Shown: positions 1,394 through 42,737 of the stretch, in pieces
Position numbering within the stretch: the stretch's first letter is position 1
Layout of the letters: each line of letters begins with the position of its first letter
Origin: Saprospiraceae bacterium
Lineage (GTDB): Bacteria > Bacteroidota > Bacteroidia > Chitinophagales > Saprospiraceae
Reading direction: 5' to 3'
Assembly (NCBI GenBank): GCA_015490175.1
Contig: WFYJ01000248.1
Span: 1-44,460 of the forward strand
DNA length: 44,460 nucleotides
Notes under the pieces: generated by a model
The model's input: the letters and a program-made list of their open reading frames with translations, nothing else
The model's database searches: none
Told to the model about the DNA's origin: nothing
Made by a program: the position numbers and the translations under genes

Positions 1394-1470
1394 ATGCGGC
1401 CATGCGGCCCGGCAGGCATTTACGCATGCGTTGGAGAGAGGCGGCCTGCTCCGCTCTCCAGCGCTTGCGC

Positions 1471-4400
1471 TCACTGCTTCAGCAGGCGCAGCGCAGCCGT
1501 GCCCACATCGCCTGTGACTTCGATGAGCCATATGCCTTTCGGCAAATGCTGCACGGGCAGGCTGAGCGTGGCGTCGGTGGCGGGCTGCCACGTGCGTTCC
1601 CAGAGAATGCGGCCGTTGAGGTCGGTGCAGCGCACGCGCAGGGTGCCAACGGGCGGCGTGCCCTGCCAGCGCAGCTCGGCCAAGTCGGATGCGGGGTTGG
1701 GCGTGAGCCCCAGCTTTTTGGCGAAAGCCGCCTGCTCGGCGGTGCCGGTCAATGGGCGCTCGCCCGTGGCAAACCACACGCCCCACTTGCCCTGCTCGAT
1801 AAATACGAAGGGGTCGCCCCCCGCACTGATCTTGTCGGGTGCCAGCGGAATCATGGCCAGCACAGGGTCGTCGAAGGCGCCGGCCGTGGCATCGAACACC
1901 ATGAAGTCGTCGGCCACCGAGTAGTTGGGATAGCCCAGCGTGGTGTTCTGGTAGATGGCGCCCACGTCGCCGGTCTCGATGTTGGCGGCCAGCACGTAGT
2001 ACTCACCCGCGAATTCGTCCAGAAAGTCAAAGGCGATGATGTAGTCCGAGTTTTTGGAGAAGGCGGGATTGCCCACGCTCGAGTTTTCGGGCAGGGTGTT
2101 GAACAGCTTGTCCACGAAGCCGTCGCCCCAGTAGTCGGCGCTGCCGTCCCACACGCGCACAAAGCCGATGTCCCAGTACTCGATGTCGTTGCCGAAGGTG
2201 CCTTCGATGCGGTTGAACGCATCGTACATGACCCACTGGCCCGAGAAGTCGAACTCGAGCACGTCGGCGTACTGCACGTCGTTGGTGGTGATGCCGCCGG
2301 TGGCGGTGGTGGGGTTGTACAGCTCGAAGGTGACCCACTCTTCCAGACCGAAGTCATAGACCCAGACGCGGTTGTCGTAGTCGTCGGTCAGGGCGGCGAT
2401 GCGGCTGCCGTCGCGCGCGATGGCCACGTTGCGCCAGATGGGATCGGACTGGATGGTCGTTTCCTCGAAGGTGCCGTTCTGCCAGTCGAAGATAATGGCG
2501 CGCATGGTCTGGTCGGAAGCGATATAGACGGCCACGCTGCCGTCGTCGGTGAGGCTGGGCTTGCTCAGCGGGGCGATGGTGGTCAGCGGATTGGCCACGG
2601 GCTGCCCGTCGGGCGAGAAGATGTAGAGGGCACTGAGGTTGGCATCGCTCAGCAGCACGAAGTCGTCGCCCGGGTTGGGCGTATAGTCGTTGCCGCCGCC
2701 CGTACCCGCGCCGCCGGTACCGATACCCACCAGGTCGAAAGCATTTGCTGCGGCCTGCACCTCGGCCGAGTTGGCGCCGTAGAGGTCGGCAGCCGACTGC
2801 ACCACGGCCAGCCGCAGGTCGGCAAACTGCGACGACTTGGTCAGGTATTGCGTCAGGGCGCGGTACCAGACCTGCTCGGCCTTGTCTTTGCTCACGGCCG
2901 TGGCGAAGATGTAGTAGGCGCGGTTGGGGATGCCGCTGTTGATGTGCACCCCGCCGTTGTCCTGATTGCCGAAGTACTGCTCGCTGGTGTGGGCCGGCTG
3001 CCAGCCGGGGTCGTTGAGGCTGTTGCCGCCGTTGTGCGGGTTTTCCATATTGCGCAGGGCGCCCGAGGGAAAGTAGAAGCCGTTGGCCACGTCTTCGCCC
3101 AGCTTCCAGTCGTCGCGGTCAATCATGGTGCCGAACACATCGGCGAAGTGCTCGTTGATGGCGCCCGACTCGCCGTAGTACTCGAGGTTGGCTTCGGCCT
3201 GGATGACGCCGTGCGCCATCTCGTGGCCGGCCACGTCGAGCGCTTTGGCCAGTGGCGCCGTGAAGGCCTGATTGCCGTTGCCGTAAAACATGGCCTGGCC
3301 GTTCCAGAAGGCGTTGTCCATCTCACTGCCGTCGGCCTCCGTCACGTCAATGAGCGAAATGATGGTGCCCCCCACGCCGTCTATCGAGTTGCGGCCGAAG
3401 GTGGTGCGGAAGTACTCGTAGGCCACGCCGCCGTTGTAGTGAGCCGACACGGCCGTGGGATTGTCCCACTGGTTGTCGGCAGTAGCCAGGTGCGATGCCG
3501 AGAAGTCGTCGTTCTGGGGCGAAGTGCCGTTGGCCGTGATCGTCCAGATGGCGCCCACCGGCTCGTCGGGCAGGTTCGAGGCGGCGGCGTCGAACATGGG
3601 CCGCGAGGCATCGATCAGGTAGAAAGCGCCATTCACTTCATAGGTGTGGATGGTGCGCACCTGTCCGTGCAGATCGTAGGCCTGCGCCGTGGCGGGGCCG
3701 TCGGGTGGCAGCGCATGCACCTGCCTTCCGGCAAAATTGCAGACCTCTTCCTGGCGGTGCAGCACCTCGCCGGTGGTGGCATCCACCCATACGGTCTGCC
3801 GCGACAACAGGTGGGGCATCACCTGCACGCGCCAGGCGGGACGCGCCGGCAGCGCTCCATCCACGCCGGCCCACCAGCAGGCCTCGCTGATGAGCTGCGG
3901 TCCGGGTGCCAGCAACTTTTCCACATCGGCGAACGGCCGCAGCGACTCTCCGCCGGTCGCCTCCTGCACGGCTATCTGTTCGGCTTCGGCTTTCGCCAGA
4001 TGGAACGCGCCGGCCGCTGCATCGACGCGGAAGTAGCGGCCATTGATCAGGAAGGGCACGCCGTCGGCGCCGATGTGGACGACGAGCTCACCGCCATACA
4101 CGGGCCGGTCGTCCTTCACCTGTTGCAGGCGCACGTGTGTCATCCCCAGCGCGTCGGTACGTACCTGACGCACCTGCCAGCCGTCGGCAGGCCATTGCAG
4201 CAGCGCTTCGGTGCGGGCCAGCAGCTTGCGCGCGGTGGCCTCGGGCGTGGCCGCCACGGCCTCGGGCCAGCGCCCTTCCACCCAGCGCGGCAGGTGCGTG
4301 GTCGGATCGAGGTGCACGCGCAGCAACTGCGGTACGGCGGCATTTCCCGAAAGGGGCACGGGCGCGGCGGGCAGCGCCCAGTGGGTGCGGGCCGGCGCAG

Positions 4401-4557
4401 GTGCGGCCTGCACCGAAGCCCATGGTTTCATCACCGCGCCCACCTCTTGGGGCTGGTGTTTTTTGCCGGAAGGCAGGACAGTCTGCGGCGCCTTCATCTG
4501 GGCCGTGGCCCACAGGCTTATACTCATCGAAGCAAGAAGGAGTATCCATTTTTTCAT
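1471..4557 (-). CDS. Secreted M4 (thermolysin-like) metallopeptidase with T9SS type A sorting domain
   Basis: The 1028-residue product has a signal peptide (1-20), an FTP/PepSY-type propeptide (about 70-260) and an M4 catalytic domain (about 290-610). The zinc motif HEMAH is at 445-449, the third zinc ligand Glu469 sits in NEHFAD, and the proton donor His538 sits in GGVHINSGIPN, so all catalytic residues are present. A roughly 330-residue region (about 625-940) follows with repeated Asp-rich, WD40/PD40-like strands. The last 80 residues begin LGLTPNPASD and look like a T9SS type A sorting signal. The protein should therefore be exported by Sec, carried across the outer membrane by T9SS and released or anchored outside. 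It is much longer than classical thermolysin because of the propeller-like region and the sorting tail. Four copies of the GNAA hairpin word lie inside the gene (1534, 1716, 3723, 4461). Confidence 0.92.
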   Translation of the reverse strand: MKKWILLLASMSISLWATAQMKAPQTVLPSGKKHQPQEVGAVMKPWASVQAAPAPARTHWALPAAPVPLSGNAAVPQLLRVHLDPTTHLPRWVEGRWPEAVAATPEATARKLLARTEALLQWPADGWQVRQVRTDALGMTHVRLQQVKDDRPVYGGELVVHIGADGVPFLINGRYFRVDAAAGAFHLAKAEAEQIAVQEATGGESLRPFADVEKLLAPGPQLISEACWWAGVDGALPARPAWRVQVMPHLLSRQTVWVDATTGEVLHRQEEVCNFAGRQVHALPPDGPATAQAYDLHGQVRTIHTYEVNGAFYLIDASRPMFDAAASNLPDEPVGAIWTITANGTSPQNDDFSASHLATADNQWDNPTAVSAHYNGGVAYEYFRTTFGRNSIDGVGGTIISLIDVTEADGSEMDNAFWNGQAMFYGNGNQAFTAPLAKALDVAGHEMAHGVIQAEANLEYYGESGAINEHFADVFGTMIDRDDWKLGEDVANGFYFPSGALRNMENPHNGGNSLNDPGWQPAHTSEQYFGNQDNGGVHINSGIPNRAYYIFATAVSKDKAEQVWYRALTQYLTKSSQFADLRLAVVQSAADLYGANSAEVQAAANAFDLVGIGTGGAGTGGGNDYTPNPGDDFVLLSDANLSALYIFSPDGQPVANPLTTIAPLSKPSLTDDGSVAVYIASDQTMRAIIFDWQNGTFEETTIQSDPIWRNVAIARDGSRIAALTDDYDNRVWVYDFGLEEWVTFELYNPTTATGGITTNDVQYADVLEFDFSGQWVMYDAFNRIEGTFGNDIEYWDIGFVRVWDGSADYWGDGFVDKLFNTLPENSSVGNPAFSKNSDYIIAFDFLDEFAGEYYVLAANIETGDVGAIYQNTTLGYPNYSVADDFMVFDATAGAFDDPVLAMIPLAPDKISAGGDPFVFIEQGKWGVWFATGERPLTGTAEQAAFAKKLGLTPNPASDLAELRWQGTPPVGTLRVRCTDLNGRILWERTWQPATDATLSLPVQHLPKGIWLIEVTGDVGTAALRLLKQ

Positions 4558-4599
4558 GGCGAACTCGTTTCAGCATTTGGGGAAAACAGAATGGAGCAT

Positions 4600-5046
4600 T
4601 CATTTTTTGGCGGCACGCGCCAGCTCCATGAGGTGTGCGTGAAGAGTGCGCACCGCCTCAGGCAGCGCCTCATCCGGCCGGTTGGGGTCCCACGCGATGC
4701 GGTGGCTGCTTTTGCCGGAAGGCAACTCAAAGAAGTGATACACATTGCCGGGCTGCTCGTAGTGCAGCGCGCGCAGGCCCAGCGCGTCGAGGGCTTCGAA
4801 GGCTTCCCTGGCCGCGCGCCGGGGCAGCCGCCCTGCCTCCTCGATGGCAGCCGACACGCCTTCCTGCCGAAACAGTTGCCCGTTGTCGCACAGGATGTAC
4901 CGGTGCTCGATACCGGTAAAGCCGCCGCCCTGGCCGAAGATGAGCACCTCCTCGGGCAAAGTACTGGCAGCGTACTTGTGCGACCGACAGGCAAACAACC
5001 ACAATGCCATCCCGGCAAGGGCAACGAACAGAGATGGTGATTTCAT
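4600..5046 (-). CDS. Small lipoprotein of unknown function
   Basis: The product has 148 residues. The ATG at 5046 was chosen because it opens a clear signal peptide ending in Leu-Phe-Ala-Cys (Cys20); an in-frame upstream extension to 5298 has no signal and crosses the leader. After the lipobox comes a compact domain with ILCDNGQLFRQEG (about 50-63) and a C-terminal helical part. It resembles short Bacteroidota lipoproteins with no assigned role. It lies 42 bases upstream of the M4 peptidase in the same direction and could share its transcript, which hints at a role at the cell envelope but nothing firmer. Confidence 0.65.
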   Translation of the reverse strand: MKSPSLFVALAGMALWLFACRSHKYAASTLPEEVLIFGQGGGFTGIEHRYILCDNGQLFRQEGVSAAIEEAGRLPRRAAREAFEALDALGLRALHYEQPGNVYHFFELPSGKSSHRIAWDPNRPDEALPEAVRTLHAHLMELARAAKK

Positions 5047-6665: not shown

Positions 6666-6731
6666 CGTTTCCTGCGGACAATGAAAATCGGCACTGCGTT
6701 GTTCGAACTGCGTTTACAAAACCGGTACGCC

Positions 6732-7403
6732 ATGCGTATGTTACTTCCAATCAGCCTGCTGCTTGCGGCGTGGTCATGCAACCCGGACACTGAAGTGGTG
6801 CAGCAGTTCGACGAGTCAGGCACACTCATCGCCGAATTCAGCATGGACAAGAAGACGGGCAAGCGGCAGGGACCGTATCGCTTTTTTTACCCCAACGGCA
6901 AGGTGATGGAAGAAGGCTGGTACGAGCAGGACAGCCTGCACGGCACGCGCCGCCTCTACTACGAGTCGGGGCAGTTGCAGGCCGAGGAACACATCGTTGA
7001 AGGCAGCTATGAGGGGCCGTGGCGATCGTGGTACCCTTCCGGCCGGCTCGACATGGAAGGCCGGTACGAAAACGACAAGATGAGCGGCGTGTGGAAACGC
7101 TATTACGAAAGTGGCCAACTGATGGAAGAAGTTACCTTTGCCGACAACCTCGAAAACGGGCCTTTCCGCGAGTACTGGCCCAACGGCCGCCTCAAAGCTG
7201 AAGGCACCTACAAGGATGGCGATTACGAACACGGCCTGCTCTTGCTCTACGACGAGTCGGGGCAGCTGGAGCGCAAGATGGACTGCAAGCGCGGCATCTG
7301 CCGCACCATCTGGACGCGCGATCAGGGCGACATTCAGGATCCGCACCTCGACTCGCTGCAGCGCCGCCTCGAACAGCTCACCGAAGAACACCTTTCCAAC
7401 TGA
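6732..7403 (+). CDS. MORN-like (YwqK-type) repeat lipoprotein upstream of porQ
   Basis: The ATG at 6732 (or 6738) opens a lipoprotein signal ending in Ala-Trp-Ser-Cys (Cys16). An upstream in-frame ATG at 6681 would put extra residues before the signal and is less likely. The mature 207 residues contain about seven MORN/YwqK-type repeats (YxxGxLxxEGxY pattern, for example FYPNGKVMEEGWY, YYESGQLQAEEHI, WYPSGRLDMEGRY, YWPNGRLKAEGTY). The family is often annotated as the antitoxin of YwqJK, but lipoprotein forms are common in Bacteroidota and are more likely envelope proteins. It ends 8 bases before porQ and is very probably co-transcribed with it, so it may act with the T9SS outer-membrane machinery (inference). 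Confidence 0.75.
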   Translation: MRMLLPISLLLAAWSCNPDTEVVQQFDESGTLIAEFSMDKKTGKRQGPYRFFYPNGKVMEEGWYEQDSLHGTRRLYYESGQLQAEEHIVEGSYEGPWRSWYPSGRLDMEGRYENDKMSGVWKRYYESGQLMEEVTFADNLENGPFREYWPNGRLKAEGTYKDGDYEHGLLLLYDESGQLERKMDCKRGICRTIWTRDQGDIQDPHLDSLQRRLEQLTEEHLSN

Positions 7404-8500: not shown

Positions 8501-8536
8501 GGAGTGAGGAGTGAAGAGTGAAGAGTGAGGAGTGAG
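8495..8536 (+). repeat. Perfect-phase GAGTGA heptamer array
   Basis: Six 7-base units (GAGTGAG or GAGTGAA) in exact register, starting at the porQ stop codon. The same unit family appears in the spacers at about 31040, 31585, 37567 and 44330, and inverted at 5934, 18598 and 26325. Confidence 0.8.
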
Positions 8537-8592
8537 CCTGTCCCCTGGCAGGCATCGCCGGGCAGTAGCACCAATGGCGCCTTTTTCGTATC

Positions 8593-10497
8593 ATGCCCTT
8601 CGAAATCGTCGCGTGTATGTACGAAATGGCAGGCATCATTATTCTGGGCATTTTCGCCCAGTGGTTGGCCTGGCGCATCCGTGTGCCGGCCATCCTTCCG
8701 CTGATCCTCATTGGGCTGGCTGTGGGGCCGATCTCCACGCGCTACACCCCCGACGGCACCAAGCTGCTCGAGCCCGTCTATCAGCCCGCCCTGGACAAAG
8801 GACTCTTTCCCAACCAGTACCTCTTCTACTTCGTCTCGCTGGCCATCGGCATCATCCTGTTCGAGGGCGGGCTGACGCTGAAGCGCAAGGAGCTGCGCGG
8901 CATGGCGCCTGCCATCGGCCGCCTCATCTCGCTGGGGGCTGCGGTGACCTTCCTCGGCGGTGGCCTGGCCGCCTATTTCATCATGGGGCTGAGTGCACCG
9001 CTCTCTTTCCTGTTTGCTGCCCTGATCATCGTGACGGGCCCGACCGTAATTGCGCCCATCTTGCAGAACGTGCCGCTCAACCGCAAGGTGGCCACCATCC
9101 TGAAGTGGGAAGGCATCCTGATCGACCCCATCGGGGCGCTGGTGGCGGTGCTCGTCTTCGACTTCATCGTGTCGGGGCACGGTGCCATTGCATTCACCTC
9201 GCACGCCCTGTTGGCTTTCGTGTACATCATGATCACGGGCGGGGTGGTCGGCCTGCTGGCGGCCCTGCTGCTGTACCAGTTCATCAAGCGGAACCGGGTG
9301 CCCCACTACCTGACCAACGTCTTCACGCTGGCCGTGGTGCTGCTGGCCTTTGTGCTGTCCGAATACTTCGCCCACGAGTCGGGCCTGCTGACGGTGGTGG
9401 TCATGGGTACGGTGTTGGCCAACATGGACGTTCCACAGCTCAAGGAGATCCAGTTTTTCAAGGAAAGCATCAGCGTGCTGCTCATCTCGATGCTCTTCAT
9501 TTTGCTCGCCGCAAACATCGACCTGGCCCACCTGCAACTGCTTCTGGACTGGCGCTGCCTGTGGCTGTTCCTGTTCGTCATTCTGGTGTTGCGGCCGGCC
9601 GCCGTCTTTCTGAGCACGCGCGGCTCGGAGCTCCACTTTCGCGAAAAACTGTTCATCTCGTGGGTGGGGCCGCGCGGCATCGTGGCCGCCGGTATCGCCT
9701 CGCTCTTTGGCCTGAGCCTCACCAACGACGGCATTCCCGGCGCCGAATACCTCACGCCCCTCGTGTTCATGATCGTGCTGGGCACGGTACTGCTCAACGC
9801 CACCACGGCGCGCCTGGTGGCCCGATGGCTGGGCGTGACACAGGAAGCCTCCAACGGCATCCTCTTCGTGGGGGCCAACAAGGCCGCACGTCTCATCGCC
9901 AAATACCTGCAAGACAACGGCCGCCACGTGGTACTGGTGGACAGCAACGAGAAAAACGTGGAGCGGGCGCGCGCAATGGGACTCGAAGCCCTCAGGGCCA
10001 ATATCTTCACCGACGACCTCGAAGAGCAGTTCGAGCTGGTGGATGTGGGCTACCTGTTGGCCTTCACCAGCAATGCCGACGTCAACGAGTTTGCCGTGAC
10101 GCGCTACCGCAAGGTCTTCGGCGAAAACGGCACCTTCCGCCTGCTCACCGCCGAAGAGCTGCGCCAGGACCCCGCCGAGCTGCCCGAAACCGGCATCTTC
10201 TCCTACACCGACGACTACCTCAACTTCAACGAGGTGGCGCGCGACTACCCCTACATCCACGAGGAGCCCATCCGTTCGGTGGACGAGCTGCGGCAACTCA
10301 TCCGCCAGATGTCGCTCATCGACTTCCGGCTGCCGCTGTTCATCAAGTATCCCGACGGCTTCATCGACATCATCCCGCGCGACCTGGACCAGCTCTCCAT
10401 CGAGGGCGAAGGCTACTACCTGGTGTACATGGGCAAGCCTCTCGACACCACACCCCGCGAAGCGACGCGTCAGGAGCCTGCGGCAGCGCGCGAATAG
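8593..10497 (+). CDS. CPA-type cation/proton antiporter with C-terminal RCK (TrkA-N) domain
   Basis: The 634-residue product has about 12 hydrophobic segments in residues 8-410, typical of the CPA1/CPA2 Na+/H+ exchanger fold, including a FEGGLTLKRKEL motif near residue 95 and an SWVGPRGIVAAG motif near residue 355. A Rossmann-type nucleotide-binding domain starts about residue 420 (ILFVGANKAARLIAKYL) and matches the RCK/TrkA-N family that gates transport in response to NAD(H) or other nucleotides. A TrkA-C-like end may follow. It should exchange Na+ or K+ for protons at the inner membrane. An internal ATG at 8617 is an equally good start. The gene converges with the minus-strand nucleotidyltransferase gene with a 17-base gap. 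Confidence 0.85.
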   Translation: MPFEIVACMYEMAGIIILGIFAQWLAWRIRVPAILPLILIGLAVGPISTRYTPDGTKLLEPVYQPALDKGLFPNQYLFYFVSLAIGIILFEGGLTLKRKELRGMAPAIGRLISLGAAVTFLGGGLAAYFIMGLSAPLSFLFAALIIVTGPTVIAPILQNVPLNRKVATILKWEGILIDPIGALVAVLVFDFIVSGHGAIAFTSHALLAFVYIMITGGVVGLLAALLLYQFIKRNRVPHYLTNVFTLAVVLLAFVLSEYFAHESGLLTVVVMGTVLANMDVPQLKEIQFFKESISVLLISMLFILLAANIDLAHLQLLLDWRCLWLFLFVILVLRPAAVFLSTRGSELHFREKLFISWVGPRGIVAAGIASLFGLSLTNDGIPGAEYLTPLVFMIVLGTVLLNATTARLVARWLGVTQEASNGILFVGANKAARLIAKYLQDNGRHVVLVDSNEKNVERARAMGLEALRANIFTDDLEEQFELVDVGYLLAFTSNADVNEFAVTRYRKVFGENGTFRLLTAEELRQDPAELPETGIFSYTDDYLNFNEVARDYPYIHEEPIRSVDELRQLIRQMSLIDFRLPLFIKYPDGFIDIIPRDLDQLSIEGEGYYLVYMGKPLDTTPREATRQEPAAARE

Positions 10498-10514
10498 GCA
10501 AGGCGGGCGGTACT

Positions 10515-11012
10515 TCAGTCCCCCTCGCGAATGCGGCGCTCCACAGCCGTGGTCGAGTAGCCGGGCACGAAGGGCAGCACGCGCACTTCGCCGCCTGCGG
10601 CCCGCACCACCTCGGCGCCCACGATCTGGTCGGGCTGGTAGTCGCCGCCCTTGACCAGCACGTCGGGCATCAACAGCCGGATGAGTTCCAGGGGCGTGTC
10701 CTGCTCGAAGACGACCACGGCATCGACGCACTGCAAGGCCGCCAGCAGATGGGTGCGCGTGGCCTGGTCGTGGATGGGGCGCCCTGCCCCCTTGAGGCGG
10801 CGCACCGAGGCCGCGCTGTTGAGGCCCACGACCAGCCGGTCGCCCAGGTCGCGCGCCTGCGCCAGGTAGTGCACGTGGCCGTAATGCAGGATGTCGAAGC
10901 AGCCGTTGGTGAACACCACGCGCTGCCCCTCCGCCTTCCATTGGCGCACGCGGGCCTGCGCTTGCGACCACGAAAGGATCTTGGCGCGTATCTGGTCGAG
11001 TGTATCGGGCAT
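10515..11012 (-). CDS. rfaE2: D-glycero-beta-D-manno-heptose 1-phosphate adenylyltransferase (HldE C-terminal/RfaE2 type)
   Basis: This 165-residue cytidylyltransferase-fold protein has the [17 protein letters not shown] signature with the HxGH nucleotide-binding motif and a C-terminal [12 protein letters not shown] segment typical of the RfaE domain II family. It should transfer AMP to heptose 1-phosphate in the pathway to ADP-heptose for lipopolysaccharide. Here it is a stand-alone adenylyltransferase without the kinase domain, as often seen in Bacteroidota. The ATG at 11012 gives the normal family length; the frame continues upstream to 11081 without a good start. A hairpin word (11022-11033) lies 9 bases upstream of this ATG. 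Confidence 0.82.
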
Positions 11013-11120
11013 GTCGGTCTGTTTTGCGAAAGCGAAAAAAGCACGAGGGCGTAAATTAGCGGTGTTTGCGGGAAGGAACATCGCCTTCCGCCCACCAACT
11101 CATCAAACCACATCTGCCAT

Positions 11121-37665: not shown

Positions 37666-37748
37666 GGCGCCTGCATCTGACCTTTGTGTAACTTGAGCGC
37701 CCCTTTTTTCGTGCTTGCGCAAAAAGGCTATCGCCAAACGACCGACGT

Positions 37749-40700
37749 GTGAAGAATCTGATTCCGCATTTCATCCACGACCGATACCTCGAAGGGCGCC
37801 GGCATGGCACCTTCGACGGAGGCGCCCTGTTTGTGGACCTGTCGGGTTTCACGCGCCTGACGAGTACCCTGATGAAGCAGGGCAAGGGCGGCGCCGAGCG
37901 CCTGTCGCTCATCCTCAACCAGATCTTCGAGCCCCTCGTGCAACTCGTCTATGCGCAGGGTGGCTTCATCCCCTACTTTGCCGGCGACTCCTTCACGGCT
38001 CTCTTCCCCGGCAGTGAGGGTGCGGAGGCGCCATTTGCCGAAAGGCAAGAAAAACAGGTTGCCCTTGTCGAGCGGCTCGTCCATACGGCGCTGCAGGCGC
38101 GCGCCCGCTTCATGGCCGACGAGGTGCGCTTCGACGAGTTTGCTTTCGGCATCAAGGTGGGCATGGCGCTGGGCACCGTCGAGTGGGGCATCGTGGGCGA
38201 GGAGCGCCTGGCTTTCTACTTCCGCGGACCCGCCATCGATGGCTGCGCCCGTGCCCAGCAATATGCCGGCACCTCCGAGATCGTGGTGGACGACAGCCTG
38301 CACGCCCTGCTGGCCGATCGCTACCGCCTCAGGCCGCTGCCTGCCGAAGGCCTCTTCGTGCTCGACAGCGACTCCGTGCCGGCAGCAACGCCTGCCGTGC
38401 CGCCCTCGTTGCCCCCCCTGCGCGAAGACGTCCTCGTCCGGTTCGTGCCGGAAGAGGTGTTGCGCTTCGACGCGCAGGGCGAGTTTCGGCACGTGGTGCC
38501 CGTAGCCATCTCTTTCGAAGGGCTCGACACCCACGAAGCCCTCGACCGCTTCGTGCAAATCGCCTTGCGGCAGATGGACGCCTTCGGCGGCTACCTCAAG
38601 GAAGTAGACTTCGGCGACAAGGGCGGCGTGCTGTTCGGGCTGTTTGGCGCACCCGTCACTTTCGAGAACAACGTGGCGCGCGCGCTCGAATTCCTGCTGT
38701 CGCTGCGCGAAGAGTGGCGGGCGTTGCGACCTGACTTGCCCGCCTTGCGCACCCGTGCCGGCCTGGCGTCGGGCGTGGCCTGGGCCGGTCTGGTGGGCGG
38801 CCAGGCGCGCGCGCAGTACGCCGCAGTGGGCCTGCGCGTCAACCTGGCGGCCCGCCTGATGACGCAGGCGCGCTGGGGCGAGATCCTCACCGACGACGAG
38901 GTGCAAAAAGAACGCCACTACAAGTTCCGCTATCAGGGCGACATCACTTACAAGGGCTTCGAGCGCAGTGTGCCCACCTACCAACTGGTGGGCCGCGGGG
39001 CCGTGCGCGCCCAGCGGTTCTCCGGGCCGTTCGTGGGGCGCGAAGTGGAACTGGCCGACCTGCGCATGTTCTTTTCCCAGAACCTGCAGCAGCGGCGCCC
39101 TGCCATGGCGTTCGTCTTTGGCGAGGCCGGTGCGGGCAAGTCGCGCCTGACGTGGGAGCTGCGCACCGCCCTGCAAGGCCGCTACAACCTGGCCTGGTTC
39201 TCCTGCCAGGCCGACCAGATTTTGCGCAAACCCCTCAACCCGTTCATCTTTTTCCTCAAAAACTACTTCGACCAGTCGCCCGAAAACGATCGAGCCACCA
39301 ATCGCAAGCTCTTCGAGCAGCGCTTCCAGAGCTTGCTCAACGATTGCTCGGCCATCCTCCACGGGCAGGCCGAAGCCATCCGCCGCGAGATCGTGCGCAC
39401 CAAACCGGTCTATGCCGCCCTCATCGGGCTGGACCAGGAACACCCCTTCTGGAAAAACCTCGACGCCCGCGGCCGCTACCAGAACTCGCTGGCCGCCCTG
39501 TCGAGCCTGTTCATCGCCGAGTCGTTGATACAACCCATCATTATCGAGGTGGAAGACGCCCACTGGCTCGACGCCATGAGCCGAGACTTCCTGCGCGAGT
39601 TCGTGCCCCGCATGGCCGACTTCCCCATCGCCTTCCTCTTCACCTCGCGCTACCTCGACAATGGCGCCCGCCCCGAGATTGTGGACCGACACCTGCTCGA
39701 ACGCCACCGCATCGACACGCTGCACCTCGACCTGCGCCTCTGGGACAGGGATGCGCTCACGCGCTTCGTGCACGATCAGCTCGGTGGCCCCGTGAGCGAC
39801 CAGTTGGTAGCCACCCTGCAACGCGCCACCGAAGGCAATCCCTTCTATGCCGAGCAGATGCTCGAATACTTCCGCGAGACCGGGCAGCTCATCCGGCAAG
39901 AGGGCCAGTGGACGCTCAAGGACGAGCAAGTGGCGCTGACCAGCTCCATCGAGGCCATCCTGATGGCCCGCATCGACCGCCTGTCCGACATGGTGCGCGA
40001 GACGGTCAAGGCGGCCGCCGTCATCGGGCGCGAGTTCGAGCTGCCCGTGCTCGAAGAGGTGATGAAAGCACACAACCACACGGCCCGCCCGCCGCGCGAC
40101 CTGGGCCAACAACTGCGCGAGCAGGTGCGCCATGCCGAAGAGGGGCAGATCTGGCAGGCCGTCAACGAGCTGCGCTACATGTTTCGGCACTCGCTGCTGC
40201 GCGAAGCGGCCTACGGCATGCAGGTCAAGGCGCGCCTGCGCCAACTGCATCGCCTCATCGCCCGGGCCATCGAAAAGATCTATGCCGACCAGTTGGAAGA
40301 GCGCTACCTCGATCTGGCCTTCCACTACGAGCAGGCCGGCGTCACGGAAAAGATGCAGTACTACCTGCGCAAGGCCGCCGACCATGCGCGCCGCCACTAC
40401 CAGAACCAGACGGCACTGACCTATTACGACAAGCTGCTCGACAGCTTGCGCGCCACCAACGACCTGGCCGGCATGGTCGAGGCCCTGCTCGCCAAAGGCA
40501 ACGTCCTGGAACTGACAGGACGCTGGGACGAGGCGCGCCAGGCGTACGAAGAGGCCCTCGACTCGGCCCGGGCCGAACACAACGACCAGCTCATCGCCCG
40601 CGCCATGGACAGCCTCGGCCACCTGCTCATGCTGCAGGGCCGGTACGACGCAGCGCATGGCTGGCTCGTCAAGGCCGCCGCCCGCTTCGAGCAGCTCGAC

Positions 40701-41804
40701 GACCGCGCCGGCATTGCGCGCACGTATGGCCACCTGGGCAACCTCTTTTTCCGGCAGGGGCGCTACCGCGATGCCGAGCGCTACTTTCTGCGCAGCATCC
40801 ACATGGCCGAAGGGCAGCCCCACACCCCCGACATGGCCGCCATCGTCGGCAACCTCGGCCTCACCTACATGAACCTCGGCCAGTACGACGAAGCCATCCC
40901 CTGGCTCGAACGCCAGCTCGACGTGTGCCGCAAAGCCGGCGACAAGCAGGGCATGGCCGGCCTGTACACCAACCTCGGCATCGTGCGCCTCGAAAAGGGC
41001 GACTACGACGCCGCCCTCGTCAACTTCCAACAGGGGCTGGCCCTGGCCGAAGAGCTGGGCAACAAGCTGCTCGTCTGCATCGCTACGGGTTCCATGGGCA
41101 GCGTCTTCCAGCAAAAGGGCGACTACAGCCGCGCCATGGAACACTTCCAGCGCGACCTGGCCCTCACCGAAGAGCTGGGCGACAAGCAGGGCAAAGCCAT
41201 CGCCCTGGGCCTCATCGGCGACCTGTACAGCACCATGGGCCGATTCGACCAGGCCATCCACTACCTCCAGCAGCAACTGGCCCTCTCGGAAGAGCTGCGC
41301 TACCAGAAAGGCATCGCCAAAGCCGTCAACTCGCTCGGCGACGTCTATTTCTTCCTCGGCGACTACGCCCAATCGCTGCATTACTACGACCGCGCCATCG
41401 ACATCGCCCGACGCATCGACAACCGCCTGGTGCTCGGCTTCAGCCTCGTCGAAAAAGCCATCGTGTTGTGCGAGGCCGGCCGCACCGACGAGGCCGCCCG
41501 CATCGCTGAAGAAGCACAGGCACTGGCGCGCGAGCTGGGCAACCCCGAGCTGCTGTTCGAGACCCGACTGGTGCAGGCGCGCATCGCACGTGTTGCCGGC
41601 CGTACCGACGAGGCGCACGCCATCCTCTCGGAGCTGCGCTCGGGCCTGCTGGGACGCAAAGAGCAGGCCGCCGTCTTCTTCGAGCTCCATGCCCTGACCG
41701 GCAAAGACGCCTACCGCCAGCGCGCCCTCGACCTCTACCAGGCACTCTTTGCCGAGACGCCGCGTTATCTGTATCGCCTCCGCATCGAGGAGCTGCTGCG
41801 ATGA
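37749..41804 (+). CDS. Tandem class III cyclase, STAND NTPase and TPR protein, organised like soluble adenylyl cyclase
   Basis: The 1351-residue protein (GTG start) has two class III cyclase domains: C1 at about 20-200 and C2 at about 245-415. C1 has both metal Asp (Asp30 in FVDLSGFT, Asp80 in AGDSF). C2 lacks them but has a candidate base-contact Lys284, Asp290-Lys291 in DFGDKGG, and the transition-state Asn365 and Arg369 in VNLAARL. The catalytic site would thus be one C1/C2 pair, as in animal soluble adenylyl cyclase. C1 also has AIDGCARAQ near 162-170, close to the C1 segment of that enzyme. An NTPase follows with Walker A GEAGAGKS (458-465) and Walker B-like VEDAHWLD (601-608), then about 470 residues of TPR repeats. 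It should make cAMP (or cGMP) under control of the NTPase and TPR parts. A GCAA hairpin word lies 23 bases upstream (37713) and a GAAA one inside (38033). Confidence 0.85.
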   Translation: MKNLIPHFIHDRYLEGRRHGTFDGGALFVDLSGFTRLTSTLMKQGKGGAERLSLILNQIFEPLVQLVYAQGGFIPYFAGDSFTALFPGSEGAEAPFAERQEKQVALVERLVHTALQARARFMADEVRFDEFAFGIKVGMALGTVEWGIVGEERLAFYFRGPAIDGCARAQQYAGTSEIVVDDSLHALLADRYRLRPLPAEGLFVLDSDSVPAATPAVPPSLPPLREDVLVRFVPEEVLRFDAQGEFRHVVPVAISFEGLDTHEALDRFVQIALRQMDAFGGYLKEVDFGDKGGVLFGLFGAPVTFENNVARALEFLLSLREEWRALRPDLPALRTRAGLASGVAWAGLVGGQARAQYAAVGLRVNLAARLMTQARWGEILTDDEVQKERHYKFRYQGDITYKGFERSVPTYQLVGRGAVRAQRFSGPFVGREVELADLRMFFSQNLQQRRPAMAFVFGEAGAGKSRLTWELRTALQGRYNLAWFSCQADQILRKPLNPFIFFLKNYFDQSPENDRATNRKLFEQRFQSLLNDCSAILHGQAEAIRREIVRTKPVYAALIGLDQEHPFWKNLDARGRYQNSLAALSSLFIAESLIQPIIIEVEDAHWLDAMSRDFLREFVPRMADFPIAFLFTSRYLDNGARPEIVDRHLLERHRIDTLHLDLRLWDRDALTRFVHDQLGGPVSDQLVATLQRATEGNPFYAEQMLEYFRETGQLIRQEGQWTLKDEQVALTSSIEAILMARIDRLSDMVRETVKAAAVIGREFELPVLEEVMKAHNHTARPPRDLGQQLREQVRHAEEGQIWQAVNELRYMFRHSLLREAAYGMQVKARLRQLHRLIARAIEKIYADQLEERYLDLAFHYEQAGVTEKMQYYLRKAADHARRHYQNQTALTYYDKLLDSLRATNDLAGMVEALLAKGNVLELTGRWDEARQAYEEALDSARAEHNDQLIARAMDSLGHLLMLQGRYDAAHGWLVKAAARFEQLDDRAGIARTYGHLGNLFFRQGRYRDAERYFLRSIHMAEGQPHTPDMAAIVGNLGLTYMNLGQYDEAIPWLERQLDVCRKAGDKQGMAGLYTNLGIVRLEKGDYDAALVNFQQGLALAEELGNKLLVCIATGSMGSVFQQKGDYSRAMEHFQRDLALTEELGDKQGKAIALGLIGDLYSTMGRFDQAIHYLQQQLALSEELRYQKGIAKAVNSLGDVYFFLGDYAQSLHYYDRAIDIARRIDNRLVLGFSLVEKAIVLCEAGRTDEAARIAEEAQALARELGNPELLFETRLVQARIARVAGRTDEAHAILSELRSGLLGRKEQAAVFFELHALTGKDAYRQRALDLYQALFAETPRYLYRLRIEELLR

Positions 41805-41819
41805 ACCCCATTTTGCTCC

Positions 41820-42737
41820 ATGCAAACCACGGCCATGTGCTTCACCCTCATCCTTGCTCTCTTGCTCACCTGCAGTTGCCGGCCAACGACCGACTGGTCG
41901 GCCCACTTCGACCCGGCGCCCTTCGACATGCCCTACGACCTGAGCCGGCCCGACACCTGCTGGCTGCTGCCCGACGCCCTGCGCGAAATCTCGGGCCTGA
42001 GCTGGAGCCACGACACGCTCTGGACGCACAACGACGAGCAGGGCATCCTCTTCCGCCTTTCGGCAAATGACGCCTCCCTGCTCGACACCCTCCACTTCCA
42101 CAAGGACGGCGACTACGAAGGCATCGAAAAGGTCGGCTCGACCGTGTGGGTGGTCAAAAGCAACGGCACGCTCTATGCCGTGGACCTCCGCACGCGCACC
42201 ACCCGCAAGTATGCCACGCCGCTGGGCAAGGCCCAGGACGTCGAAGGCCTTGCCTGCGACACTGCCCACCGACGCCTGCTGCTGGCGTGCAAGGGCAGCG
42301 CCGGCGACGGGTTCAGCCCTTTCGAGCGGGCCATCTACGCCTTCGACCTCGACTCACTGGCGCTGGCGCCGCGCCCGCTCTACGTCATCCACCAGCAGGC
42401 TGTGGACGCCTGGCTGGGCAGCCAGCCTGCCGGCGAATGGCGCGACAAGCTCATGGAGGCTTTCGCCAAAACCGACGACCACCTGCGCTTCCGGCCCTCG
42501 GCCCTGGCCGTCCACCCGCTGACGGGCGACCTGTGGGTCGTCTCTTCCCCCGGCAAGCTGCTGCTCGTGCTGTCGCCACAGGGCAAGATTCGGCACATCG
42601 CCCGCCTCGACAAGCGCATCCTGCCCCAGCCCGAAGGTATCGCCTTTGCTCCCGACGGCACGCTCTTTCTGGCCAGTGAAGGGCGCCAAGGGCAGGGCAA
42701 AATTTGCCGATTTCGTCCCGAGACGTCCGCTGACTAA
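41820..42737 (+). CDS. SdiA-regulated-like/YjiK-type propeller lipoprotein
   Basis: The 305-residue product has a lipoprotein-type signal (MQTTAMCFTLILALLLTCSC). The body resembles the SdiA-regulated (YjiK) propeller: REISGLSWSHDTLWTHNDEQ, DGDYEGIEKVGSTVWVVKSN, then LPQPEGIAFAPDGTLFLASE near the end. Members are outer-membrane or periplasmic propellers, some suspected phosphatases or phytase-like. It starts 15 bases after the cyclase gene and may be co-transcribed. Two hairpin words lie inside: 42055 encodes Leu-Ser-Ala-Asn-Asp, and 42458 is the second. Confidence 0.75.
   Translation: MQTTAMCFTLILALLLTCSCRPTTDWSAHFDPAPFDMPYDLSRPDTCWLLPDALREISGLSWSHDTLWTHNDEQGILFRLSANDASLLDTLHFHKDGDYEGIEKVGSTVWVVKSNGTLYAVDLRTRTTRKYATPLGKAQDVEGLACDTAHRRLLLACKGSAGDGFSPFERAIYAFDLDSLALAPRPLYVIHQQAVDAWLGSQPAGEWRDKLMEAFAKTDDHLRFRPSALAVHPLTGDLWVVSSPGKLLLVLSPQGKIRHIARLDKRILPQPEGIAFAPDGTLFLASEGRQGQGKICRFRPETSAD

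Follow-up and report, generated by a model that had tools for sequence, protein, structure and literature searches.

Can a bacterial gene encode a protein with the whole layout of animal soluble adenylyl cyclase (sAC; ADCY10 in human), and if so, which cyclic nucleotide would that protein make? The question is raised by a gene at positions 37749..41804 (+) of a 44,460-nucleotide stretch of contig WFYJ01000248.1 from a Saprospiraceae bacterium (this whole stretch is hereafter called the window), for which a first-pass annotation had proposed just such a layout and had used the label adenylyl cyclase. On the combined evidence of its open reading frame (ORF), its Pfam matches and its relatives, we assign the gene to the sAC lineage, as a nucleotidyl cyclase in which two cyclase domains (C1 and C2) are followed by a STAND NTPase and a TPR tail. 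That it encodes a paired sAC-lineage cyclase with a STAND/TPR switch is very probable. To our best explanation as a whole, namely a cyclase of this kind whose likeliest product is cyclic GMP (cGMP), we give a probability of about 0.55.

The gene is a real one. It starts with GTG and its product has 1351 amino acids, and the fact that 11 distinct loci encode relatives places it far beyond chance. The frame stays open upstream as far as 37692; in the orthologues L004-L013 the match begins at the position of the GTG of the window protein, and nine of these ten likewise start with GTG, L006 having TTG. The first reading of the sequence had placed a C1-C2 tandem, a STAND-like NTPase and a TPR tail in one chain, and Pfam agrees: Guanylate_cyc matches as two stretches (E 7.9e-14), AAA_16 at residues 427-622 (E 1.4e-16) and TPR_12 as six stretches (E 3.2e-57), with TPR_MalT also matched. 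C1 (residues ~21-205; 37809..38363), which is matched by PF00211 in a profile scan of the genome, and C2 (residues 244-416; 38478..38996) are followed by the STAND NTPase with its helical and winged-helix parts (residues 418-905; 39000..40463) and by the TPR tail (residues ~883-1296; 40395..41636), all on the plus strand. Within the NTPase, the alignment places a P-loop, GEAGAGKS, at residues 458-465 and a Walker B motif at 597-603. An antisense ORF of 1513 amino acids (37728-42269, minus strand) spans the entire cyclase gene, and the orthologues have similar antisense frames. We set it aside as a gene and regard it as the codon-bias shadow of GC-rich coding DNA.

The catalytic core is homologous, domain by domain, to that of human sAC. 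When residues 1-427 were searched with phmmer against the Protein Data Bank (PDB), human sAC came top (7.8e-21), with both domains matched in order; the best prokaryotic chain was P. aeruginosa CyaB (3.6e-13), which was matched by C2 only. In the PDB, too, the family profile of C1 found human sAC C1 first, at 1.7e-22 (83 bits), the next match being CyaC at 2.4e-9, and that of C2 found human sAC C2 at 1.7e-16, followed by AC8 at 3.7e-12. The crossed matches, C1 to sAC C2 and C2 to sAC C1, were insignificant both ways. Models made from 13 tandem proteins gave the human C1 domain 119 bits, as against 18 by the model of the other domain, and the human C2 domain 93 bits, as against 15. Additionally, an AlphaFold2 (AF2) model of residues 1-427 (mean pLDDT 77, pTM 0.76) was compared with solved structures, including ADCY10. 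Its 24 best Foldseek matches were all sAC entries (best 8.6e-27; first non-sAC entry 3.3e-20), and sAC was again the best fit on VIA superposition, with Z 32.8 and 3.5 Å over 403 residues for entry 8co7.

Trees of the cyclase domains gave a matching picture. One tree of 58 rows held both domains of 13 tandem bacterial proteins, picked from 44 bacterial rows, together with 30 single-domain cyclases and human C1 and C2. In it the C1 domains, the human one included, formed one set (support 99/99), and the C2 domains, again with the human one, formed another (100/99). Both sets recurred in a 59-row tree from which four long tandem proteins were removed and to which three tandem and three single proteins were added (C1 100/98, C2 99/95), as well as in a 67-row tree in which all were kept (C1 100/99, C2 100/98); the single-domain cyclases, 30-33 per tree, fell apart from both. 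A private C1/C2 duplication in the human line was rejected, as constraining human C1 and C2 together made the 58-row tree 38 log units worse (approximately unbiased (AU) test, p 0.0042). Bacterial C1 domains thus go with human C1 and bacterial C2 domains with human C2, and the sequences indicate that the asymmetric C1/C2 pair arose once, before human and these bacterial lines parted or exchanged it. The likeness to ADCY10 noticed in the first-pass annotation has therefore held up, with phmmer, the domain profiles, the AF2 model and the trees all pointing to sAC.

Is this core likely to be catalytically competent? Positions were mapped in human numbering from PMC12867704 Table 1 and PMC12250328 (papers cited here by PMC number are drawn on in extract), and residues were counted over 37 distinct family rows, which are the 44 bacterial rows minus five non-family rows and two near-copies. 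The metal ligands Asp30 (37836..37838; human Asp47) and Asp80 (37986..37988; human Asp99) lie in C1, and the transition-state residues Asn365 and Arg369 (38841..38855; human Asn412 and Arg416) in C2, and each of the four is present in 37/37 rows. C1 also supplies the pyrophosphate/phosphate lysine Lys136 (human Lys144), whose column holds K in 34 rows and R in three. In C2, the alignments and PMC12867704 Table 1 identify DKGG (38616..38627; human FDKG 338-341) as the beta2/3 loop, the D and the K of which are kept in 36/37 rows each. All the residues that had been singled out at the outset, these four and Tyr76, are where they were said to be, and the two segments then likened to the eukaryotic enzyme are present, FGDKGG at residues 288-293 and AIDGCARAQ at 162-170. 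Both metal aspartates were found in 17 of 17 C1 domains, and none of the 17 C2 domains had one at either position; Asn and Arg were both found in all 17 C2 domains, and each occurred in one of the 17 C1 domains. The split site proposed in the first reading is thus borne out, and the metal sites have been retained. Since C2 domains lack the metal aspartates and C1 domains almost always lack Asn and Arg, ordinary homodimer sites of either domain are not expected. Judged by these residues, the catalytic set appears to be intact, and the cyclase is predicted, with considerable confidence, to be active.

The bicarbonate site has fared very differently from the human one. Tyr76 (37974..37976) does indeed stand in place of the bicarbonate-binding Lys95, as first suggested, and the second residue of the site, the bicarbonate switch Arg176, is also gone, being replaced by Ala167 (38247..38249). 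Over the 37 family rows the Lys95 column contains Y 31 times, H three times, C twice and L once, and never K, and the Arg176 column contains A in 25 rows and R in none. Neither the lysine nor the arginine is found in the aligned tandem proteins from WOR-3, Leptospira and rhizobia. In animal sACs, substitution of these residues accompanies lost bicarbonate sensitivity, according to the extract of PMC12867704. With both bicarbonate-binding residues gone, bicarbonate action in the human mode is not to be expected.

The base pocket bears on the choice of substrate. Glu285 (38601..38603), a residue of guanylyl-cyclase type, replaces the base-recognising Lys334 of human sAC (for its role see PMC12867704, PMC4215837 and PMC5967339), and Ala358 (38820..38822) replaces the adenine-contacting Thr405. 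Three alignments, by phmmer, the family profile and MAFFT, agree in placing Glu285 opposite Lys334, with the shared DKG loop anchoring it behind and the Gly before the strand anchoring it in front. Within the family the Lys334 column holds E in 36 rows and Q once (L066), and the Thr405 column A in 34 and S, V and N once each, so that the E-A pair is present in 33/37 members. According to PMC4215837, the purine-binding Lys is replaced by Glu in guanylyl cyclases and the Asp by C, S, T, H, A or G, the bacterial enzyme Cya2 having an E-G pair; the contact of Glu with guanine and an E-to-K switch are described in PMC5967339. The E285/A358 pair fits this rule for class III guanylyl cyclases and departs from the mammalian pair of Lys334 and Thr405. 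Elsewhere, single-domain bacterial cyclases have K at the base position in 28/33 cases, and in tandem proteins outside the family this position varies (D, L, H, R, Q, E), the pockets being L-T, H-T, R-T, Q-T, E-M and D-S. The rhizobial tandem proteins L048-L050 and L084-L086, which have H, R, Q or E there, keep the metal aspartates and the Asn/Arg pair. The genome's other class III cyclase (L001; G000:C220:3102-3650), a frame of 581 amino acids with a PF00211 score of 188 bits and a weak match to HNOBA, carries the K-D pair of adenylyl type, where the window protein has E-A. Since the pocket follows the guanylyl-cyclase pattern, the original adenylyl cyclase label is doubtful and the likeliest product is cGMP. 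On these residues cGMP is our tentative choice for the main product, at a little under even odds; cAMP is a serious but less likely candidate, and another product, a mixture or none is unlikely.

The middle of the protein suggests how such a cyclase might be controlled. An AF2 model of residues 418-905, made from an alignment of 38 sequences that included the window's own, reached pLDDT 86 and pTM 0.80, and its best PDB matches were MalT (8bob; 3.3e-10, Z 22.5), the STAND-TPR protein 6mfv (Z 22.5) and Apaf-1 (Z 21.5). A P-loop NTPase fold like that of MalT and Apaf-1, followed by a repeat region that forms a superstructure, is what defines the STAND class, and both are seen here. The model thus identifies the middle region as a STAND-fold NTPase, as the first-pass annotation had supposed. 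The TPR tails of STAND proteins sense ligands. We envisage that the protein is a class III nucleotidyl cyclase of the sAC/ADCY10 lineage, located in the cytosol and acting as a switch. The TPR tail would bind some protein or ligand, and this binding, to judge from MalT and Apaf-1, would shift the NTPase from a closed, nucleotide-bound form to an active form, which would let the attached C1-C2 pair close on its substrate. Of the two pseudo-symmetric sites just one would be able to work, with C1 supplying Asp30, Asp80 and Lys136, and C2 supplying Asn365, Arg369 and the base pocket. The product might then be read out by CRP-like proteins; cNMP_binding has six matches in the genome. For full-length human sAC, the extract of PMC12802110 reports a predicted STAND domain with a P-loop; none of the nucleotides tested there exerted isoform-specific control.

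How widespread is this protein? In a scan of genome contigs, the 11 loci with relatives came from ten metagenome-assembled genomes (MAGs) of Bacteroidota, which carry the names Saprospiraceae, Bacteroidetes or Bacteroidota, and from one WOR-3 MAG. Identity to the window protein was 49-74% for the Bacteroidota loci and 23% for the WOR-3 locus (L014). These values come from an alignment of the WOR-3 protein and nine of the ten Bacteroidota loci, those nine matching over essentially full length; L012, which is cut by a contig end, was omitted there and included in the core alignment. Among 100 sampled genomes of the window's own family (apparently Saprospiraceae), 47 had a match spanning the whole C1-C2 tandem (model start at or before position 4 and end at or after 418 of 419; E at most 1.6e-97), and two more (G405 and G438) were matched piecewise, with both cyclase domains in a single frame. 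In a phylum-wide sample, 155/395 genomes matched model A2; among the matches listed, the full tandem was spanned in three of the 395, all of the window's own family, and the others were partial. A tblastn search of plasmid records with the C1-C2 part matched 159 records. In ten of these the match covered 80% or more of the query; nine of the ten are from Ensifer or Sinorhizobium and one is from Leptospira borgpetersenii. A further plasmid search with the Ensifer protein gave 18 records, new among them Microvirga, Rhizobium jaguaris and a second type from Ensifer. In all seven plasmid tandems retrieved (L045, L048-L050, L084-L086) C1 precedes C2 in one frame, and a Pfam check for AAA_16 and TPR in three proteins outside the family (L014, L045 and L048) found both in each. 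Because the layout occurs in about half of the sampled family genomes and in other phyla, the window protein is no isolated case. The Leptospira tandem cyclase (WP_002741124.1; L045 2896-7089) lies on plasmid lbp2 and adjoins genes annotated as GMC oxidoreductase and sphingomyelin phosphodiesterase. On G192:C9 and G023:C59, several C1-type cyclase matches fall on one short contig stretch, as if the genes were tandemly repeated.

Among known systems, human ADCY10 (PDB 4clf and relatives) shares with the window protein the C1-C2 tandem of matching domains, the split site, the DKG loop of C2, the pyrophosphate lysine and the transition-state Asn and Arg, and, as predicted in PMC12802110, a STAND domain after the core. 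It differs in having the bicarbonate Lys and Arg and a K-T rather than an E-A pocket, and the two proteins are 23-25% identical when compared over the catalytic core. The soluble guanylyl cyclase (sGC) of Dictyostelium was reportedly presented in 2001 by Roelofs, to go by the title, as a cGMP-making homologue of the mammalian enzyme. This eukaryotic protein, which we liken to the window protein by its published description, has two catalytic domains, is structurally analogous to mammalian sAC and makes cGMP (PMC11988041, in extract), which shows that a guanylyl cyclase can be built on the sAC plan. The bacterial tandem proteins (L045; L048-L050 from Ensifer/Sinorhizobium; L084, Microvirga; L085, R. 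jaguaris; L086, Ensifer plasmid AB; L014, WOR-3) share the order C1-C2 within a single frame of 1300-1570 codons, as well as the same split site, but a base pocket other than E-A; L014, L045 and L048-L050 are 22-27% identical to the window protein in the NTPase region. Proteobacterial AAA_16-TPR proteins with a single cyclase (e.g. L046 and L047) also combine cyclase, STAND-type NTPase and TPR, but their one cyclase domain must pair with a second chain. The TOMM kinase/cyclase family TIGR03903 has the same three elements, likewise with one cyclase domain in need of a second chain, and the window protein scores 175 against its cut-off of 706.

The main alternative concerns the product. The protein could be an adenylyl cyclase like animal sAC with a drifted pocket, in which backbone and hydrophobic contacts hold ATP and Glu285 is neutral. 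Bacterial class III enzymes are mostly adenylyl cyclases. Human Lys334 contacts the base via water only (PMC12867704 Table 1), so its loss may matter less, and in Ma1120 a single K-to-E change gave no GTP-preferring enzyme, kcat/Km remaining higher for ATP than for GTP (PMC4215837). Glu alone is thus no proof, and it is this result that keeps our estimate for the guanylyl assignment from going higher. Drift, however, is not what the family shows, as both pocket residues are conserved within it (E 36/37, A 34/37); moreover, a cyclase with the K-D pair is already encoded elsewhere in the genome. Among tandem proteins outside the family the base position does vary. We consider a drifted adenylyl cyclase possible, but the less likely of the two. 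Besides the Ma1120 result, several other points weigh against our preferred explanation. Residues 347-358 of the AF2 core model, Ala358 included, have pLDDT below 50, and a PDEase_II profile search of the genome gave no match (a PDEase_I search was silent in the genome and in every control alike). At a VIA Z of 30.9, the AC9 core is level with the bottom of the sAC range (30.8-32.8); as fold alone fails to separate sAC from membrane cyclases, we dropped it as a discriminator and used the profiles and trees instead. In the trees, long branches (WOR-3, Leptospira, human) leave placement within each set unsure, and a warning from the program about long branches coming together makes us distrust the branching order inside either set. 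A catalytically dead pair, used by a STAND regulator for nucleotide binding or dimerisation, would suit a base pocket unlike that of active sAC, but sits poorly with invariant Asp30, Asp80, Asn365 and Arg369 and a K136 column of K and R only, and is improbable.

The remaining alternatives concern lineage and role. One is a separate bacterial origin of the layout, in which two ordinary cyclase domains would have been fused to a common module of STAND-TPR type; in its favour, single-cyclase-STAND-TPR proteins are abundant (e.g. in Cupriavidus and Phyllobacterium). Against it, the C1 and C2 domains of all tandem proteins fall into two supported sets, with human C1 in one and human C2 in the other, and a separate human duplication is rejected by the AU test; unless long-branch effects misled the trees, these results refute it, and we regard it as very improbable. 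Regulation by bicarbonate, that is, a sAC orthologue that senses CO2/HCO3-, would be in line with human sAC being the closest solved structure to the window core, and bicarbonate regulation is reported for other class III enzymes (PMC3085406), but the replacement of both binding residues, here, throughout the family and in the aligned tandems beyond it, makes this extremely improbable. Finally, the protein might act in phage defence, perhaps like Pycsar, with the STAND/TPR part sensing infection and the cyclase making cCMP, cUMP or another alarm nucleotide. STAND-TPR proteins are common in defence, and C1 has a weak PADLOC match to PycC (3.8e-11). At 40.7 bits, however, this match is well under that to sAC C1 by profile, so that PycC is not the closest kin; the flanking genes scanned (HAD hydrolase, SdiA-regulated lipoprotein, sucB) include none of effector type, and the first two of them had no match when given to PADLOC; and the cyclase is a stable trait of many genomes in one family. 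A defence role is distinctly improbable, and a STAND/TPR-switched cyclase of the sAC lineage remains our preferred explanation.

The gene neighbourhood was also considered. The neighbours in the window encode MFS, ogt, macro, coaD, a HAD hydrolase, a SdiA-regulated lipoprotein and sucB, the last three flanking the cyclase; the lipoprotein gene (41820-42737, plus strand) begins 16 bp downstream of it. When the seven neighbour proteins were searched in the eleven related loci, matches were found only in the sister locus L004. L005-L008, L010 and L013 have other flanks in common, with a DUF5916 protein on one side of the cyclase and a thioredoxin-like protein on the other in L005-L008 and L010. 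As flanks differ between loci, context yields no common partner, and conserved neighbours were dropped as a clue to function. Elsewhere in the window, an ORF of 240 amino acids (6681-7403, plus strand) has MORN_2 repeats (5.1e-32), and two long ORFs, of 1212 amino acids (1402-5040, plus strand) and 840 amino acids (8532-11054, plus strand), have no Pfam match at 1e-6.

The origin of animal sAC is usually told via cyanobacterial enzymes, and a 2004 paper by Kobayashi, Buck and Levin is said, by its title, to describe a conserved domain structure in bacterial and eukaryotic sACs. That bacteria have sAC-like cyclases, and that sAC is of bacterial origin, is already established (extracts of PMC3085406 and PMC6023465), and the genes for such bacterial cyclases are entered in records under 'adenylate/guanylate cyclase domain-containing protein'. 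Our searches of the open-licence PMC literature turned up no description of a bacterial C1-C2-STAND-TPR protein with an E-A pocket, and the layout itself may have been described earlier. What appears to be new, on sequence comparison, is an orthology that runs from C1 to C1 and from C2 to C2 across several bacterial phyla, together with the family-wide loss of the bicarbonate pair and the conserved pocket of guanylyl type in the window's family. We put forward, as a tentative proposal, that Saprospiraceae possess a guanylyl cyclase built like sAC, in which a STAND/TPR-gated C1-C2 pair would make cGMP, as a prokaryotic counterpart of Dictyostelium sGC.

Since the C1/C2 split is common to these bacteria and animals, the paired sAC core would predate the phyla in which it is known. 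A complete asymmetric C1-C2 pair joined to a STAND module in several bacterial phyla means that this pairing is open to study in bacteria, and the gain of bicarbonate sensing and of ATP choice becomes a testable question. Guanylyl cyclases are reportedly rare in bacteria, as the title of a 2004 paper by Shenoy and Visweswariah has it. If the E-A pocket does mean cGMP, the family would add a type of guanylyl cyclase to those of bacteria, and the choice between ATP and GTP would have changed within the sAC lineage.

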